From NCBI RefSeq assembly GCF_008642335.1, contig NZ_CP029191.1, positions 434,001 through 498,000 of the forward strand: a DNA stretch of 64,000 bases, in the 5' to 3' direction. This document shows, in pieces, positions 7,631-12,399 of this stretch. Position numbers and translations under genes: made by a program. The notes under the pieces were generated by a model that saw nothing but the letters and a program-made list of their open reading frames with translations, did not search any database and was not told the origin of the DNA. Numbering within the stretch: the first letter of the stretch is position 1; every line of letters starts with the position of its first letter. The DNA comes from Streptomyces venezuelae (lineage in GTDB: Bacteria > Actinomycetota > Actinomycetes > Streptomycetales > Streptomycetaceae).

Positions 7631-8053
7631 TCAGCCGAGGAACGAAAGCCGCACCTTCCGGTCCGGATTGTCGACGTTCGTGTCGACCAGGCACACCGAC
7701 TGCCAGGTCCCCAGCTCCAGGCGGCCGTCGACGACCGGCAGGGTCGCGTGGGGCGGGACCAGGGCGGGGAGCACGTGGTCGCGGCCGTGGCCCGGGCTGC
7801 CGTGGCGGTGCTGCCAGCGGTCGTCCGCCGGGAGCAGCGTGTGCAGCGTGGCGAGCAGGTCGTCGTCGCTGCCCGCGCCGGTCTCCAGTACGGCGATGCC
7901 CGCCGTGGCGTGCGGGACGAAGATGTTGAGGAGGCCGTCACGGCCGTCGGCCGCCTCGCGCAGGAAGGCCTCGCAGTCGGCGGTGAGATCACGGACGACC
8001 TCGGTCGATCCGGTGGTGACCTGCAGGACTCGGGTGGTGAACGCATCGGACAT
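7631..8053 (-). CDS. YjbQ/UPF0047 family protein
   Basis: 140 residues from ATG at 8053, with GGGGAAG upstream. The motif LNIFVPHATAGIAVLETG and the later HGRDHVLPALVPPHATLPV plus GTWQSVCLVDTN are typical of the UPF0047/YjbQ fold. The family is sometimes labelled secondary thiamine-phosphate synthase because E. coli YjbQ can make thiamine phosphate when overproduced; the real role is unsettled. It converges on the Fur gene, with only 21 bp between stops. Confidence 0.9.
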   Translation of the reverse strand: MSDAFTTRVLQVTTGSTEVVRDLTADCEAFLREAADGRDGLLNIFVPHATAGIAVLETGAGSDDDLLATLHTLLPADDRWQHRHGSPGHGRDHVLPALVPPHATLPVVDGRLELGTWQSVCLVDTNVDNPDRKVRLSFLG

Positions 8054-8118
8054 GCGTCCATTCTTCCCCACGTCGGCTTCCACTGCCTGATATCGGGAGT
8101 CCGCCTTTCGAGACGCCA

Positions 8119-8148
8119 TTGACCGTGCGTTGCCGAAGTGGCTACGTT
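8119..8148 (+). promoter_or_regulatory. Predicted promoter of the sulfonate operon leader
   Basis: TTGACC (8119-8124) and TACGTT (8143-8148) are separated by 18 bp. The -10 box fits the TAnnnT pattern common in actinobacteria. It ends only 7 nt before the leader-peptide ATG at 8156, which implies a leaderless transcript. Confidence 0.5.
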
Positions 8149-8155
8149 CTGCGGC

Positions 8156-8239
8156 ATGTTGCGTTCAGCCCTGCTCACCACGCGCGGTCACATCGACCTG
8201 CTGCGGGTGGCCTCCTCCGCGTGTCGTCGCGGCTGCTGA
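8156..8239 (+). CDS. 27-residue Cys-ended leader peptide (predicted cysteine-responsive attenuator)
   Basis: The ATG opens a 27-codon frame starting MLRSALLTTRGHIDL and ending ACRRGC before TGA. There is no ribosome binding site, and the promoter-like -10 box is 7 nt upstream, so it is probably translated leaderless. The peptide matches the 'putative leader peptide' type known from Streptomyces ahead of sulfur-assimilation genes. In mycobacteria, leaderless Cys-rich short frames are known to make downstream operon expression depend on cysteinyl-tRNA supply. Here two of the last five codons are Cys and the next genes take up and cleave sulfonates, so the same logic is inferred. Confidence 0.8.
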   Translation: MLRSALLTTRGHIDLLRVASSACRRGC

Positions 8240-8448
8240 CGCCCTTTCCCCGCTTTCGCGTTTCCTTCTTTCCCGGCATCCGCCGTCAGGCGCCCCCGTG
8301 CCGCTCCCGCATGCCGCATGCACGCATGACTGCGTGACTGCATGCAGGGACTGAGCTCGGGTTCGGGCTCGGCCTCAGGGCCCAGCCGCCCGCCCGCCCC
8401 CGGCCACCGGTGCCCCGTCACGCCTGCCCCTCGCCCCGTGGAGCCCCC
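8240..8448 (+). promoter_or_regulatory. Leader mRNA between the Cys peptide and ssuC, with attenuator-like hairpin
   Basis: This untranslated stretch holds a clear hairpin at 8316-8345: outer stem GCATG/CATGC and inner stem CACGCA/TGCGTG around TGAC. It is followed by a G/C-rich tract up to the GTG start. In an attenuation model, ribosome stalling at the Cys codons would change folding here. No U-run is present, so Rho-dependent termination or occlusion of ssuC translation are equally possible. Confidence 0.45.
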
Positions 8449-9311
8449 GTGAGCATCAGCCATGCCCCACCACACCCGCCCGTGCCCGACATATCCCCCA
8501 AGTCGTCTTCCGAGCCGTCCCCAGGACTCGAGCTCCAAGCCCTCGTTCCCTCCTCCACCCGCCGCGCCCGCGTCCCCCGCTGGCTGCGCCGCACCTCCGG
8601 CCCGCTCGCGCTGCTCGCCCTCTGGCAGATCCTGAGCGCCACCGGCGTACTGGCCGGTGACGTGCTCGCCTCCCCCGGGACCGTCGCCCGCGTCGCCGGC
8701 GGTCCTGCAGCCAGGGGGGGGTCTCCCTGCAGCGTGTCGCGCTCGGGCTGCTCTTCGGCACCGTCGTCGGGACGGTGCTCGCGCTCGTCTCCGGGCTCTT
8801 CCGGATCGGCGAGGACCTCGTGGACGCCAGCGTGCAGATGCTGCGCACCGTGCCGTTCGTCGGGCTGATCCCGCTGTTCATCATCTGGTTCGGGATCGGC
8901 GAGGCGCCGAAGATCGCGATCATCACGCTCGGGGTGTCCTTCCCGCTCTACCTCAACGTGTACGCCGGGATCCGGGGCGTCGACGCCCAGTTGATCGAGG
9001 CCGGGGAGTCACTCGGTCTCTCGCGGTGGGGGCTCGTGCGGCACGTCATCCTGCCGGGCGCGCTGCCCGGCGCCATGACGGGGCTGCGCTACTCGCTGGG
9101 CATCTCCTGGCTCGCCCTCGTCTTCGCCGAACAGGTCAACGCCGACGCCGGCCTCGGCTTCCTCATGGTCCAGGCCCGCGACTTCCTGCGCACCGACGTG
9201 ATCGTCGTCTGCCTCGTCGTCTACGCCTTCCTCGGCCTGACGGCCGACTTCGTCGTCCGAACCCTCGAAAGGCTGCTGCTGCAATGGCGACCGACGTTCA
9301 CCGGCCGGTGA
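8449..9311 (+). pseudogene. ssuC: Sulfonate ABC transporter permease (SsuC-like), frame-disrupted
   Basis: Inner-membrane permease of a sulfonate importer. The N-terminal part reads from GTG at 8449 (GTGGAG upstream) through LALLALWQIL to ASPGTVARVA. The remainder, starting with VSLQRVALGLLFGTVVGTVLALVSG and carrying the EAA loop EAGESLGLSRWGLVRHVILP, is in another frame. The break lies at about 8701-8725, around a run of eight G. Relatives have, from memory, about 14 residues between these blocks, so sequence is missing there too. It overlaps ssuB by 28 nt. Either the transporter is inactivated or the assembly is wrong at this G-rich site. Confidence 0.85.
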
Positions 9312-10075
9312 CCACGACCGTGCCCCCCGTGTCCTCCGCGCCCTCCGCGCCCTCCGTGACCTCCGCCGTCCGCGTCGACGGGCTGACCCGTACGTTCGAC
9401 GGGCGTGCCGTCATCCACGACCTGCACCTCGACGTGCGCCCCGGCGAGTTCGTCGCGCTGCTCGGCCGCAGCGGCTGCGGCAAGTCGACGCTGTTGCGCA
9501 TCCTCGCCGGGCTCGACCGCGACATCGAGGGCACCGTGCTCGTGCCGCGCCGCAAGGCCGTCGCGTTCCAGGCGCCGCGGCTGATGCCGTGGAAGCGGGT
9601 GTGGCGCAACGTACTGCTCGGGCTGCCGGGCAAGCCCCACCGGGACGTCGCCGAGCAGGCCCTGGCCGAGGTGGGCCTGAAGCACCGCACCGACGCCTGG
9701 CCCAAGACCCTCTCCGGCGGCGAGGCCCAGCGCGCCTCGCTGGCCCGCGCCTTGGTGCGCGAGCCGGATCTGCTCCTGCTCGACGAACCGTTCGGCGCGC
9801 TCGACGCGCTCACCCGCATCAAGGCGCAGCGCCTCGTCGACGAGCTGTGGCAGCGGCGCGGCTGCGCGGTTCTCCTCGTCACACACGACGTCGAGGAGGC
9901 GGTGCTCCTCGCCGACCGGGTCCTGGTCATGGACGGCGGGGTGATCGCGTACGAGACGGAGATCGACCTGGAACGGCCGCGCGGCATCTCCGACCCCCGC
10001 TTCGGCGAGCTCCGCGCGGAGCTGCTCGAACGGCTCGGCGTCGAGGCGACCGCCGCCGAAACCTCCGCCGCCTGA
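9284..10075 (+). CDS. ssuB: Sulfonate ABC transporter ATP-binding protein
   Basis: 263 residues. Energises sulfonate import. Walker A is LLGRSGCGKST, the signature LSGGEAQRASLARAL, Walker B LLLLDEPFGALDAL, and the switch His is in LLVTHDVEEAV. The segment AVAFQAPRLMPWKRVWRNV is typical of the SsuB/TauB group. The ATG at 9284 lies inside the end of ssuC (28-nt overlap), pointing to translational coupling. ssuA follows after 63 bp. Confidence 0.93.
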   Translation: MATDVHRPVTTTVPPVSSAPSAPSVTSAVRVDGLTRTFDGRAVIHDLHLDVRPGEFVALLGRSGCGKSTLLRILAGLDRDIEGTVLVPRRKAVAFQAPRLMPWKRVWRNVLLGLPGKPHRDVAEQALAEVGLKHRTDAWPKTLSGGEAQRASLARALVREPDLLLLDEPFGALDALTRIKAQRLVDELWQRRGCAVLLVTHDVEEAVLLADRVLVMDGGVIAYETEIDLERPRGISDPRFGELRAELLERLGVEATAAETSAA

Positions 10076-10138
10076 ACACCGCTCCCGCTCCCGCTCCCGC
10101 AACGTCCTCGTCCCCTTACCGAAGCGAACGGAACCACC

Positions 10139-11188
10139 ATGCGACGACCACGCCCCGTCCCCGCCGCCGCCCTGCTGCTCCCCCTGGCCCTGCTGCTCGC
10201 CGCCTGCTCCGGCACCTCGTCCGCCGACAGCTCCATCGGCGGCTCGGGCGGCGGCACCGACGGAAAGGGGTCCTTGACTCTCAACGTCGGTGACCAGAAA
10301 GGCGGTTCGGAGGCCGTGCTGCGCGCGGCCGGGGAGCTGGACGACCTCGACTACAAGATCCGCTGGTCGACCTTCACCTCAGGGCCGCCGCTCCTGGAGG
10401 CCATCAACGCCAAGGCCGTCGACGTCGGCGGCATCGGCAACACCCCGCCCGTCTTCGCGGCGGGCGCCGGGTCGAAGATCACTGTGGTGGCAGCCAGTCA
10501 CGGCTCGGCCGCCGGGGACACGATCCTCGTGCCGGACGACTCACCGCTGAAGAAGCCGCAGCAGCTCAAGGGCAAGTCCGTCGCGGTGGCGCAGGGGTCG
10601 TCCGCGCACTTCAGTCTGGTCGCGTCCCTGAAGAAGGCCGGGCTCGACTTCAAGGACGTACAGGTCAAGTATCTTCAGCCGGCCGACGCGCTCGCCGCGT
10701 TCACCAGCGGCAATGTGGACGCCTGGGCCGTCTGGGACCCGTACACCTCACAGGTCCTGCGGGCGAAGACCGGCCGTGTCCTGACCGACGGCGACGGACT
10801 GGTGAACGGCCTCGCCTTCCAGGCGGCGGCACCCGGGGCCCTGCGCGACAAGAAGAAGGCCGCGGCGATCTCCGACTACCTGGACCGGCTCCGCCGGGCC
10901 CAGGACTGGGTCTACAAGCACCCCAAGGCCTGGGCGAAGGTCTGGGCGCGGGACACCGGTCTCCCCTACGAGGTCGCGCTCGACGCCGTCAAGCGCACCA
11001 ACGGCACCCGGGTCCAGGTGGCCGTGGACAAGAACGTCATCGCGTCCGAGCAGGAGATCGCGGACACCTTCACCGATCTGAAGCTGATCCCGCGCCGCAT
11101 CGACTTCGGCGACTACGTCGACACCCGCTTCAACGGAGATCTGCCGCCCTCCACCACCGAGCCGCGCTCGTACCGCAAGGAGTCCTGA
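10139..11188 (+). CDS. ssuA: Sulfonate ABC transporter substrate-binding lipoprotein
   Basis: 349 residues. The N-terminus is a lipoprotein signal (MRRPRP, hydrophobic core, lipobox LLAAC), placing it on the outer face of the membrane. The mature part has the features of aliphatic-sulfonate-binding proteins: LNVGDQKGG, FTSGPPLLEAINAKAVDVGGIGNTPPVFA and GNVDAWAVWDPY. It delivers sulfonates to SsuCB. Its stop is 2 bp before ssuD, so the genes are one operon. Ligand range is unknown. Confidence 0.93.
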   Translation: MRRPRPVPAAALLLPLALLLAACSGTSSADSSIGGSGGGTDGKGSLTLNVGDQKGGSEAVLRAAGELDDLDYKIRWSTFTSGPPLLEAINAKAVDVGGIGNTPPVFAAGAGSKITVVAASHGSAAGDTILVPDDSPLKKPQQLKGKSVAVAQGSSAHFSLVASLKKAGLDFKDVQVKYLQPADALAAFTSGNVDAWAVWDPYTSQVLRAKTGRVLTDGDGLVNGLAFQAAAPGALRDKKKAAAISDYLDRLRRAQDWVYKHPKAWAKVWARDTGLPYEVALDAVKRTNGTRVQVAVDKNVIASEQEIADTFTDLKLIPRRIDFGDYVDTRFNGDLPPSTTEPRSYRKES

Positions 11189-11190
11189 CC

Positions 11191-12399
11191 ATGAACGTCC
11201 ACCTGCACTGGTTCCTGCCCACGGGCGGCGACGGCCGCACCCTCGTCGACCGGCACGCCTACACCGACGGCGGCATCACCCGCTCCCGCGTCACCCCGGT
11301 GAGCGGCGTGCGCGCCCCCGACATCGAGTATCTGGCCCAGATCGCCAAGGCCGCCGAGCAGTTGGGGTTCGAGGCCGTGCTCACCCCCACCGGCACGTGG
11401 TGCGAGGACGCCTGGCTGACGACGGTGGCGCTCGCCCAGCACACGGAGCGGCTCAAGTTCCTCGTGGCGTTCCGCCCCGGCGTCATCTCCCCCGTGCTTG
11501 CCGCGCAGATGGCGGCGACGTATCAGCGCATCACCCGCGGCCGGCTGCTCCTGAACGTGGTGACGGGCGGCGACTCGACCGAGCAGCGGCGGTTCGGCGA
11601 CCACCTGGACCACGACCGTCGCTACTCGCGCACCGACGAGTTCCTCTCGGTCGTACGAGGGGTGTGGGGCGGCAAGCCGTTCGACTTCCGCGGCGAGCAC
11701 TTCCAGATCGACGGCGGTCTCACCGCGCTGCCGCCGGATCCGCTGCCGGAGATCTTCTTCGGCGGCTCGTCGGCCGCGGCGGGTCCGGTCGCGGCGCGGC
11801 ACACGGATGTGTACCTGACCTGGGGTGAGCCCCCCGAGCAGGTCAAGCAGAAGATCGACTGGATCCGCGGGCTCGCCGAGGAGGAGGGCCGCACGGTGCG
11901 GTTCGGCATCCGGCTGCACACGATCTCCCGCGACTCGGCCGCCGACGCGTGGGCGACCGCGGACCGGCTGCTCGACGACCTCGACCCGGACACGATCGCC
12001 GCCGCCCAGGAGGCACTGGGCCGCAGCGAGTCGGTGGGCCAGCAGCGGATGCTGGCGCTGCACGGCGGCTCGCGCGACAAGCTGGAGATCTCGCCGAACC
12101 TGTGGGCCGGTGTCGGTCTGGTGCGCGGCGGGGCGGGCACGGCGCTGGTCGGCAGCCACGCCGATGTCGCCGACCGGATCGAGGAGTACCACGCGCTCGG
12201 CGTGGAGCACTTCGTCCTGTCCGGCTATCCGCATCTGGAGGAGGCGTACTGGTTCGGCGAGGGCGTCATTCCCGAGCTGGCGGCGCGCGGGCTGCTGCCG
12301 CGGATCCCGGCGTCGCCGCTGTCCGGCGTACCGGCGGCGAACGGACGGCCCGCCTCCGCCCCGGGCGGTGCGCCGCTCCTGGTCGCGGGCGGGCGCTGA
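11191..12399 (+). CDS. ssuD: FMNH2-dependent alkanesulfonate monooxygenase (LLM class)
   Basis: 402 residues, close to the E. coli SsuD length. Uses FMNH2 and O2 to split alkanesulfonates into aldehyde and sulfite, giving sulfur for cysteine synthesis. Seen: WFLPTGGDG at the N-terminus, TGTWCEDAWL with the Cys that corresponds to the active-site Cys of SsuD, LLNVVTGGDSTEQRRFGD, and VYLTWGEPPEQVKQKI. The ATG follows AAGGAG, which overlaps the ssuA end. No FMN reductase (SsuE) gene is adjacent, so flavin must be reduced by another protein. Confidence 0.94.
   Translation: MNVHLHWFLPTGGDGRTLVDRHAYTDGGITRSRVTPVSGVRAPDIEYLAQIAKAAEQLGFEAVLTPTGTWCEDAWLTTVALAQHTERLKFLVAFRPGVISPVLAAQMAATYQRITRGRLLLNVVTGGDSTEQRRFGDHLDHDRRYSRTDEFLSVVRGVWGGKPFDFRGEHFQIDGGLTALPPDPLPEIFFGGSSAAAGPVAARHTDVYLTWGEPPEQVKQKIDWIRGLAEEEGRTVRFGIRLHTISRDSAADAWATADRLLDDLDPDTIAAAQEALGRSESVGQQRMLALHGGSRDKLEISPNLWAGVGLVRGGAGTALVGSHADVADRIEEYHALGVEHFVLSGYPHLEEAYWFGEGVIPELAARGLLPRIPASPLSGVPAANGRPASAPGGAPLLVAGGR

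Follow-up and report, generated by a model that had tools for sequence, protein, structure and literature searches.

The polycysteine leaderless short ORFs of mycobacteria are reportedly the subject of Canestrari 2020. Later papers cite the tests of that study in M. smegmatis, and the passages concerned depict a leaderless short frame placed before sulfur genes, with Cys near its end (PMC9094748, PMC9031893, PMC13236596); according to portions of two further articles, Cys leaders had been proposed for mycobacteria in 2005 and again in 2015 (PMC1262725, PMC4633059). One of these articles, in the portion that treats them, places such leaders before cys operons in Mycobacterium and Propionibacterium acnes and before cbs in Bifidobacterium longum (PMC1262725).

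Here we describe a leader frame upstream of a sulfonate operon in the window, by which we mean the whole 64,000-nt stretch of Streptomyces venezuelae DNA that was analysed (GCF_008642335.1, NZ_CP029191.1, positions 434,001-498,000 of the forward strand). Like the mycobacterial polycysteine ORFs, it is a short and putatively leaderless frame before sulfur genes with Cys near its end; unlike them, it lacks a contiguous Cys run, its Cys codons being Cys23 and Cys27 only, and has one invariant UGU. The leaders before cys operons and cbs share with it a short frame with Cys codons and no conserved terminator hairpin, Rho being suggested by the authors, but they carry runs of Cys codons, and Streptomyces sulfonate genes are not described in the relevant portion of that article (PMC1262725). 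Ribosome-mediated attenuation on Cys codons has also been proposed for uORFC-8-2 before cysS in Rhodobacterales, which differs in its two tandem Cys codons, in the dominance of UGC (the opposite choice) and in its intrinsic terminator, as far as the part of the report devoted to it goes (PMC8632094). The window leader passes the cut-off of NCBIfam NF042934 (cis_reg_atten; 29.3 bits against 27, and 27.9 bits, still above the cut-off, in a genome-wide search), a family that differs from our description in having a bare name, "putative leader peptide", with no mechanism or codon rule attached. The Ms4527A Cys-rich leader family NF042936 aligns with it over residues 7-24, but at 19.8 bits against a cut-off of 45 the window leader is not a member. 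The frame is real, and it belongs to a named but unexplained family.

A leader frame ahead of the ssu operon

The sequence-only reading of this DNA had proposed a 27-codon leader-peptide frame ending CRRGC ahead of ssuCBAD, with no ribosome binding site and with a -10 box 7 nt before the ATG, a placement suited to a leaderless start. These claims were borne out: the frame is present in the sequence and the order ssuC, ssuB, ssuA, ssuD is backed by Pfam, no purine-rich stretch or ribosome binding site was found 5' of the leader ATG at the locus, TACGTT lies at the claimed distance, and membership of NF042934 agrees with the identity as a leader peptide (Table 1).

Table 1 Features of the leader and ssu region, in window coordinates.
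Feature	Position	Strand	Remarks
-35 hexamer TTGACC	8119..8124	+	TTGAC at equivalent place before most ssu leaders elsewhere
-10 hexamer TACGTT	8143..8148	+	18-nt spacer from -35; 7 nt to ATG
Leader peptide frame MLRSALLTTRGHIDLLRVASSACRRGC	8156..8239	+	27 codons; NF042934 29.3 bits
Leader start ATG; stop UGA	8156; 8237-8239	+	
Codons of conserved motif R10-G-H12-I-D14-L15-L-R17	8183..8206	+	Arg, Asp, Arg in 175/175 leaders (partly through profile selection)
Invariant Cys codon UGU (Cys23), then pyrimidine C8225	8222..8224	+	UGU in 236/240 leaders with Cys there
Pyrimidine-rich, G-poor tract directly 3' of leader stop, candidate Rho-loading region	8240..8289	+	
Shine-Dalgarno GGAG of ssuC	8440..8443	+	ssuC start GTG 8449
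ssuC, ABC permease, frameshifted near 8700-8724	8449..9311	+	PF00528 in second frame
ssuB, ABC ATPase	9284..10075	+	PF00005
ssuA, substrate-binding protein	10139..11188	+	PF13379, PF09084
ssuD-type luciferase-like monooxygenase	11191..12399	+	PF00296

The promoter arrangement recurs in part of the family. Of 245 leaders, 128 have TAnnnT 5-8 nt ahead of an in-frame start (95 of them at exactly 7 nt) and 117 lack it in this interval; shifted controls placed 14, 24, 34 and 44 nt upstream contain it in 42, 9, 8 and 24 of the 245. Only 2 of the 128 TAnnnT leaders have a Shine-Dalgarno-like 4-mer. Half of the eight leaders of the source genome pass this test, the window leader included, and half fail it, while among ssuD-linked leaders TAnnnT lies 5-8 nt before a start in 62/68. 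The sections on promoters in a reannotation of S. lividans describe leaderless genes as having TAnnnT some 6.3 nt ahead of their starts, together with TTGACn (PMC8079986), a pattern that the promoter of the window leader fits. From the promoter and start sequences we infer that the window leader is probably transcribed without a 5' leader. A divergent UPF0047 frame abuts this region (window 8053-8119); translated from its first ATG, it would start on the leader's -35 box, and an internal start near 8053 seems the likelier one.

The operon itself has one irregularity, in that ssuC is split over two frames by a net loss of 19 nt near 8700-8724 relative to Streptomyces atriruber (L351), whose ssuD is 98% identical to that of the window. 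The same net loss is seen against two further loci (L028 and L030), a run of 8 G lies at the site, and the frameshift may be either a real mutation or an assembly fault. Separately, seven named draft assemblies (L278, L280, L285, L302, L311, L320 and L344) extend 1.07-1.14 kb before ssuD and then reach a contig end, at a place matching the ssuB-ssuA junction in the window, about 10045-10130, where GCTCCC repeats occur.

The leader family, its peptide motif and its UGU codon

Leaders were chosen by hand from the best-scoring rows of longer lists. They came from the source genome (8), a search with the leader as query (29), top loci (58), stretches (80), a phylum sample (21) and an A2 profile covering positions 1-18 only (55), for a deduplicated total of 251; exceptions are enriched, given that L160-L166, whose matches stop short of profile position 19, were deliberately included. 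Numbering follows NF042934, in which position 19 corresponds to Cys23 of the window leader. The profiles score amino acids and hence are blind to UGU versus UGC, and the A2 profile excludes the Cys position altogether.

The source genome has eight NF042934 matches at E <= 0.003, six of them above the cut-off, and all eight leaders have UGU at the site. Judged by eye from translations, they precede a sulfatase (also supported by Pfam), a ThiS/CysO-like protein with a cysteine synthase-like protein, a cysteine dioxygenase, a sulfite reductase, a rhodanese-type sulfurtransferase, ssu, a dicarboxylate or cystine symporter, and a flavin reductase. Matches were found in 31/31 genomes of a Streptomyces sample, 3 to 14 in each, and there are therefore probably thousands in actinomycete genomes; a class sample gave matches in 91/118. 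A phylum sample of 149 genomes, class members included, returned a sole match in another class, L189, which is weak, has no Cys at the site and is probably a chance match, and a plasmid search returned one match without an annotated feature.

Across relatives, the commonest named downstream families are sulfur genes. Pfam assignment of 150 downstream proteins, drawn from every locus with a downstream frame in the set with only 4 ssu-search loci kept, gave rhodanese 20, DUF4395 18, sulfite/nitrite reductase 16 (two domains), luciferase-like monooxygenase 10, cysteine dioxygenase 7, ThiS 7, SBP family 5 6, sulfatase 6, GST C-terminal 6, SDF symporter 5, PALP 4, PAPS reductase 4 and ROK 4, among the 25 of 35 families listed; DUF4395, SBP, GST, SDF and ROK are not sulfur labels per se, and the counts are lower bounds because some frames were wrongly picked by length (e.g., that of L165). 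Of 80 named loci, the best 80 of a longer list of ssuD relatives, 68 have the leader motif upstream of ssuD when either Cys codon is allowed. Nine of the 12 loci without a leader have <=2.8 kb of upstream sequence, and three (L310, L323 and L356) have 5 kb. The ssuD-linked leaders span Streptomyces, Actinacidiphila, Kutzneria, Streptoalloteichus and Actinoallomurus, with one member each in Pseudonocardiaceae and Streptosporangiaceae.

The peptide retains a motif R-x-[H/A]-V-D-L-x-R, with the Cys codon six residues past the last Arg. Arg6, Asp10 and Arg13 occur in 175/175 leaders, partly through profile selection. Codons at Arg6 (CGC 0.43, CGG 0.29, CGA 0.11, CGT 0.09, AGG 0.08) are close to those used for Arg in genes (0.43, 0.30, 0.11, 0.13 and 0.03, in the same order), and near gene-like codon use at Arg, Asp and Arg indicates that conservation acts on the peptide. 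The last residue of the leader is variable among relatives, often Cys, often Arg, elsewhere His, Phe, Ser, Gly, Pro or Asp, and sometimes absent; therefore, the CRRGC ending is not the signal.

Position 19 behaves differently from the other codons. Of the 251 leaders, 236 have UGU there, 4 have UGC and 11 lack Cys, such that UGU makes up 236/240 where the residue is Cys; the other Cys codons of the same leaders (position 1 to stop) are UGU in 65/309, those of downstream genes in 80/454 and those of window genes in 14/77. Fisher tests on the UGU excess gave vanishing p-values, although the leaders share descent; as they are related, we counted each distinct 18-residue core once, which left UGU in 160/164 cores with Cys. 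UGU leaders were likewise recovered by the A2 profile from which the Cys position had been removed, and UGU was found in 68/68 leaders at ssuD-linked named loci. Per-codon deviation from gene usage (G/n, 175 leaders) is 3.38 at position 19 and <=1.02 elsewhere, the next most biased codons being Ser16 (AGC 0.64 vs 0.22 in genes) and then Arg21; the bias at position 19 is by far the strongest, though not the sole codon bias. Among the 236 UGU leaders, 64 have one Cys codon, 93 two, 58 three and 21 four or more, and UGU lies 3 or 4 codons ahead of the stop in 165. Leaders with Cys runs (L076, L078 and L079), which come from genomes of the class and which we guess to be mycobacterial, have UGU at the same site.

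The four UGC leaders are as follows. L174 has no clear promoter and a regulator-like frame downstream; L188 has a UGU two codons earlier within a Cys run; L221 has a UGU at position 12; and L240 has an internal duplication with UGU at the matching place of the second copy. Most leaders without Cys at the site (L160, L161, L163-L166, L260, L261 and L271) are of a common type, LTSRRHIDLxRV[CS]SA, to which L162 is near although it ends there. Leaders of this type keep the peptide motif, with Ser or Gly codons, or a stop, replacing UGU, and the type may have lost the sensor or may sense something else. The products after L160-L164 and L166 are alike by eye, which fits a correspondence with the six GST_C_2 matches among the 150 proteins; GST-like products thus seem to lie behind six of the seven leaders L160-L166.

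The base following UGU is also constrained: it is C in 179, U in 43, G in 9 and A in 5 of the 236 leaders, or a pyrimidine in 222, compared with 49% after Cys codons in genes (n=453). Counted by distinct cores, a pyrimidine follows in 149/160. The preference spans next codons for Arg, Pro, Cys, Leu, Gln, His, Ser and stop, and the purine cases are Ala (9), Thr (4) and Met (1). Of the possible 3' bases, a pyrimidine has the weakest stacking on the codon-anticodon helix. The source genome has 68 tRNA matches, among them one gene with an incomplete anticodon and two unconfirmed matches, one looking like TCC by eye; ARAGORN reads two tRNACys genes, both with anticodon GCA. MiaB is encoded in the source genome (483 bits, cut-off 355) and would presumably modify A37 of tRNACys by thiolation, aiding the decoding of UGU.

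Candidate outputs of a putative pause

A downstream frame was present at 174 loci; a rule-based search gave a Shine-Dalgarno for 116 of them, and 111 were folded. In these folds the downstream Shine-Dalgarno pairs most with the leader's final 10 nt (per-locus mean 0.140 vs 0.003-0.088 for other 10-nt bins), above 0.3 in 17/111 loci, and the complementarity of leader ends to their own Shine-Dalgarno is 4.12, higher than in all 200 re-pairings (<=3.97; 101 loci). If the leader is masked as far as a ribosome paused at UGU, the opening cost falls by >2 kcal/mol in 24/111 loci vs 7 for shuffled means; the median relief is small, 0.25 vs 0.18 for shuffles (Wilcoxon p = 0.009). Given these pairing, complementarity and relief results, an output that frees the Shine-Dalgarno is predicted for part of the family.

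Most ssu loci depart from this pattern. At the window locus, a pause at UGU leaves the predicted opening cost of the ssuC Shine-Dalgarno unrelieved (5.60 to 5.84 kcal/mol), and predicted relief exceeds 2 kcal/mol in only 6/81 ssu loci, a further difference from the mycobacterial polycysteine ORFs. An anti-Shine-Dalgarno was looked for at the ssu leader end and not found. As a separate observation, in 17/81 ssu loci the ssuC Shine-Dalgarno is predicted to pair at >0.3 with leader nt 70-61 before the leader end; this segment is near the leader start and outside the cover of a ribosome at UGU. A scan of 8000-8500 returned 0 terminator-like sites, the classical-terminator test of the leader-to-ssuC stretch gave a fold z-score of -1.00, an Rfam scan of the window gave no match at gathering score, and no conservation of the leader-to-ssuC sequence was seen in the inspected part of a 29-locus alignment.

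What is retained behind the ssu leaders is base composition. The tract after the window leader is 78% pyrimidine, with a percentile among window 50-mers of both strands printed as 1.0, and in the window together with 62 named ssuD-linked loci the 50 nt after the stop average 72% pyrimidine and lie above the local 95th percentile in 90%. The tract is weaker in the family as a whole, with only 39% of the 251 leaders above that percentile. At the leader stop the C/G skew climbs, from 0.06 over the final 20 nt of the leader to 0.30 over the 20 nt that follow (175 leaders). Per locus it is 0.26 behind the stop vs 0.007 ahead of the promoter (165 loci); the mean in the window's other intergenic stretches is 0.078 (s.d. 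0.17, n=18), and three of these exceed 0.3. By composition, this is a C-rich, G-poor tract of the kind sought in a candidate Rho-dependent attenuator, and composition kept without sequence would fit what a Rho-loading region keeps. The footprint of a ribosome paused at UGU would end about where the pyrimidine tract starts. Hiding of the tract by the pause is therefore not evident, and Rho could make the sign of control opposite.

Proposed mechanism, alternatives and wider bearing

The frame, its promoter match, its family, the conservation of UGU and peptide, the pyrimidine tract and the predicted anti-Shine-Dalgarno pairing in part of the family are read from the sequence. One interpretation, which we hold with moderate confidence, is that the window leader acts as a leaderless cysteine attenuator in which one weak codon serves as the sensor, probably with help from the nascent peptide; here we infer the leaderless transcript, the pause with its cause and direction, and the Rho step. 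The leader frame would be the first item translated on a leaderless mRNA, and a shortage of cysteinyl-tRNA would slow or stop the ribosome at Cys23. One Cys codon could suffice because no Cys codon is weaker than UGU, which tRNACys(GCA) decodes by wobble and which has a pyrimidine as its next base, and the nascent R-x-H-V-D-L-x-R, at a fixed distance from UGU, probably assists the pause. Pause versus run-through would set expression of the sulfur operon, most likely higher when cysteine is scarce, and the read-out would differ among members: some would pair their final leader codons and stop with the downstream Shine-Dalgarno, which a paused ribosome would release, and in ssu the more likely output is Rho termination on the pyrimidine tract behind the stop. 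Of the cysteine logic that the sequence-only reading had placed before a sulfur operon, the sulfur operon stands and the dependence on cysteine is plausible; comparison across relatives, of the kind it had suggested for Streptomyces, recovered a conserved peptide motif and UGU, but neither a conserved leader-to-ssuC stretch, in the inspected part of the alignment, nor a consistent RNA partner for the third U.

Alternative scenarios must be weighed against this interpretation. The nascent chain might, as in TnaC, bind cysteine or another thiol and arrest the ribosome, in which case the Cys residue and not the tRNA would matter; the invariant Arg, Asp and Arg at fixed spacing, with codon choice nearly free, agree with such an arrest peptide, yet a residue sensor should ignore UGU versus UGC, and UGU in 236/240 makes this account unlikely. 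We give a smaller chance to a classical attenuator that counts several Cys codons, here the spaced Cys23 and Cys27. The two Cys codons at the leader end, which the sequence-only reading had taken as the working feature, and the presence of the Cys-run leaders L076, L078 and L079 in the same family would both suit it. Spaced codons are not supported as a working feature by the comparison with relatives, however, in that Cys27, the terminal Cys, is not conserved and 64/236 leaders have a single Cys codon, and the scan of 8000-8500 gave no terminator-like site.

Two further accounts are less likely still. Conservation at the nucleotide level would be expected if UGUY belonged to an RNA fold or to a site bound by a protein, with its translation incidental; we consider this very improbable, as the third U has a partner at P > 0.5 in only 69/167 leaders, with partners spread between -100 and +190 relative to the leader end, and as the distance to the peptide motif is constant and keeps the reading frame. 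Least probable in our assessment is that the leader merely exposes a Rho-loading tract as a constant polarity device, in which case a pause upon Cys shortage would not raise, and might lower, expression. Such a device would account for a tract that begins at the stop and exceeds the local 95th percentile in 90% of the window and 62 named loci, but it leaves UGU and the peptide motif unexplained.

The attenuator with a single weak codon, which we prefer to these accounts, might be extended into a two-key arrest device across Actinomycetes, combining a tunnel motif with the hardest-to-decode Cys codon, such that one codon would be able to sense cysteinyl-tRNA. As UGU should lean most on the A37 modification of tRNACys, the bolder form of this extension is that the device may read sulfur status via tRNACys thiolation; we advance the two-key device and this bolder form tentatively, as possibilities more doubtful than not.

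As NCBI already names the family "putative leader peptide", the idea of a leader is not new; the stronger result is the UGU rule, with a pyrimidine next and a fixed distance from a conserved nascent peptide, class-wide. Among the articles listed by a literature search in which UGU and HVDL were barely used as terms, there was no report of the UGU rule or of the R-x-H-V-D-L-x-R motif. One synonymous codon that stays fixed while its neighbours drift provides a handle on what leaders sense, and the rule bears on how a single codon could do the work of a codon run in other attenuators. It would also link the control of sulfite reductase, rhodanese, sulfonate, sulfate-ester and probably cystine genes. 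The table of 8 attenuators in the S. lividans reannotation, within the portion of that article concerned with them, has no leader with R-x-H-V-D-L-x-R (PMC8079986). The same portion lists a metL leader before metNIQ as Met-dependent (PMC8079986); this leader ends CMCRRMCAF and, as far as that entry goes, may be a Cys leader instead.
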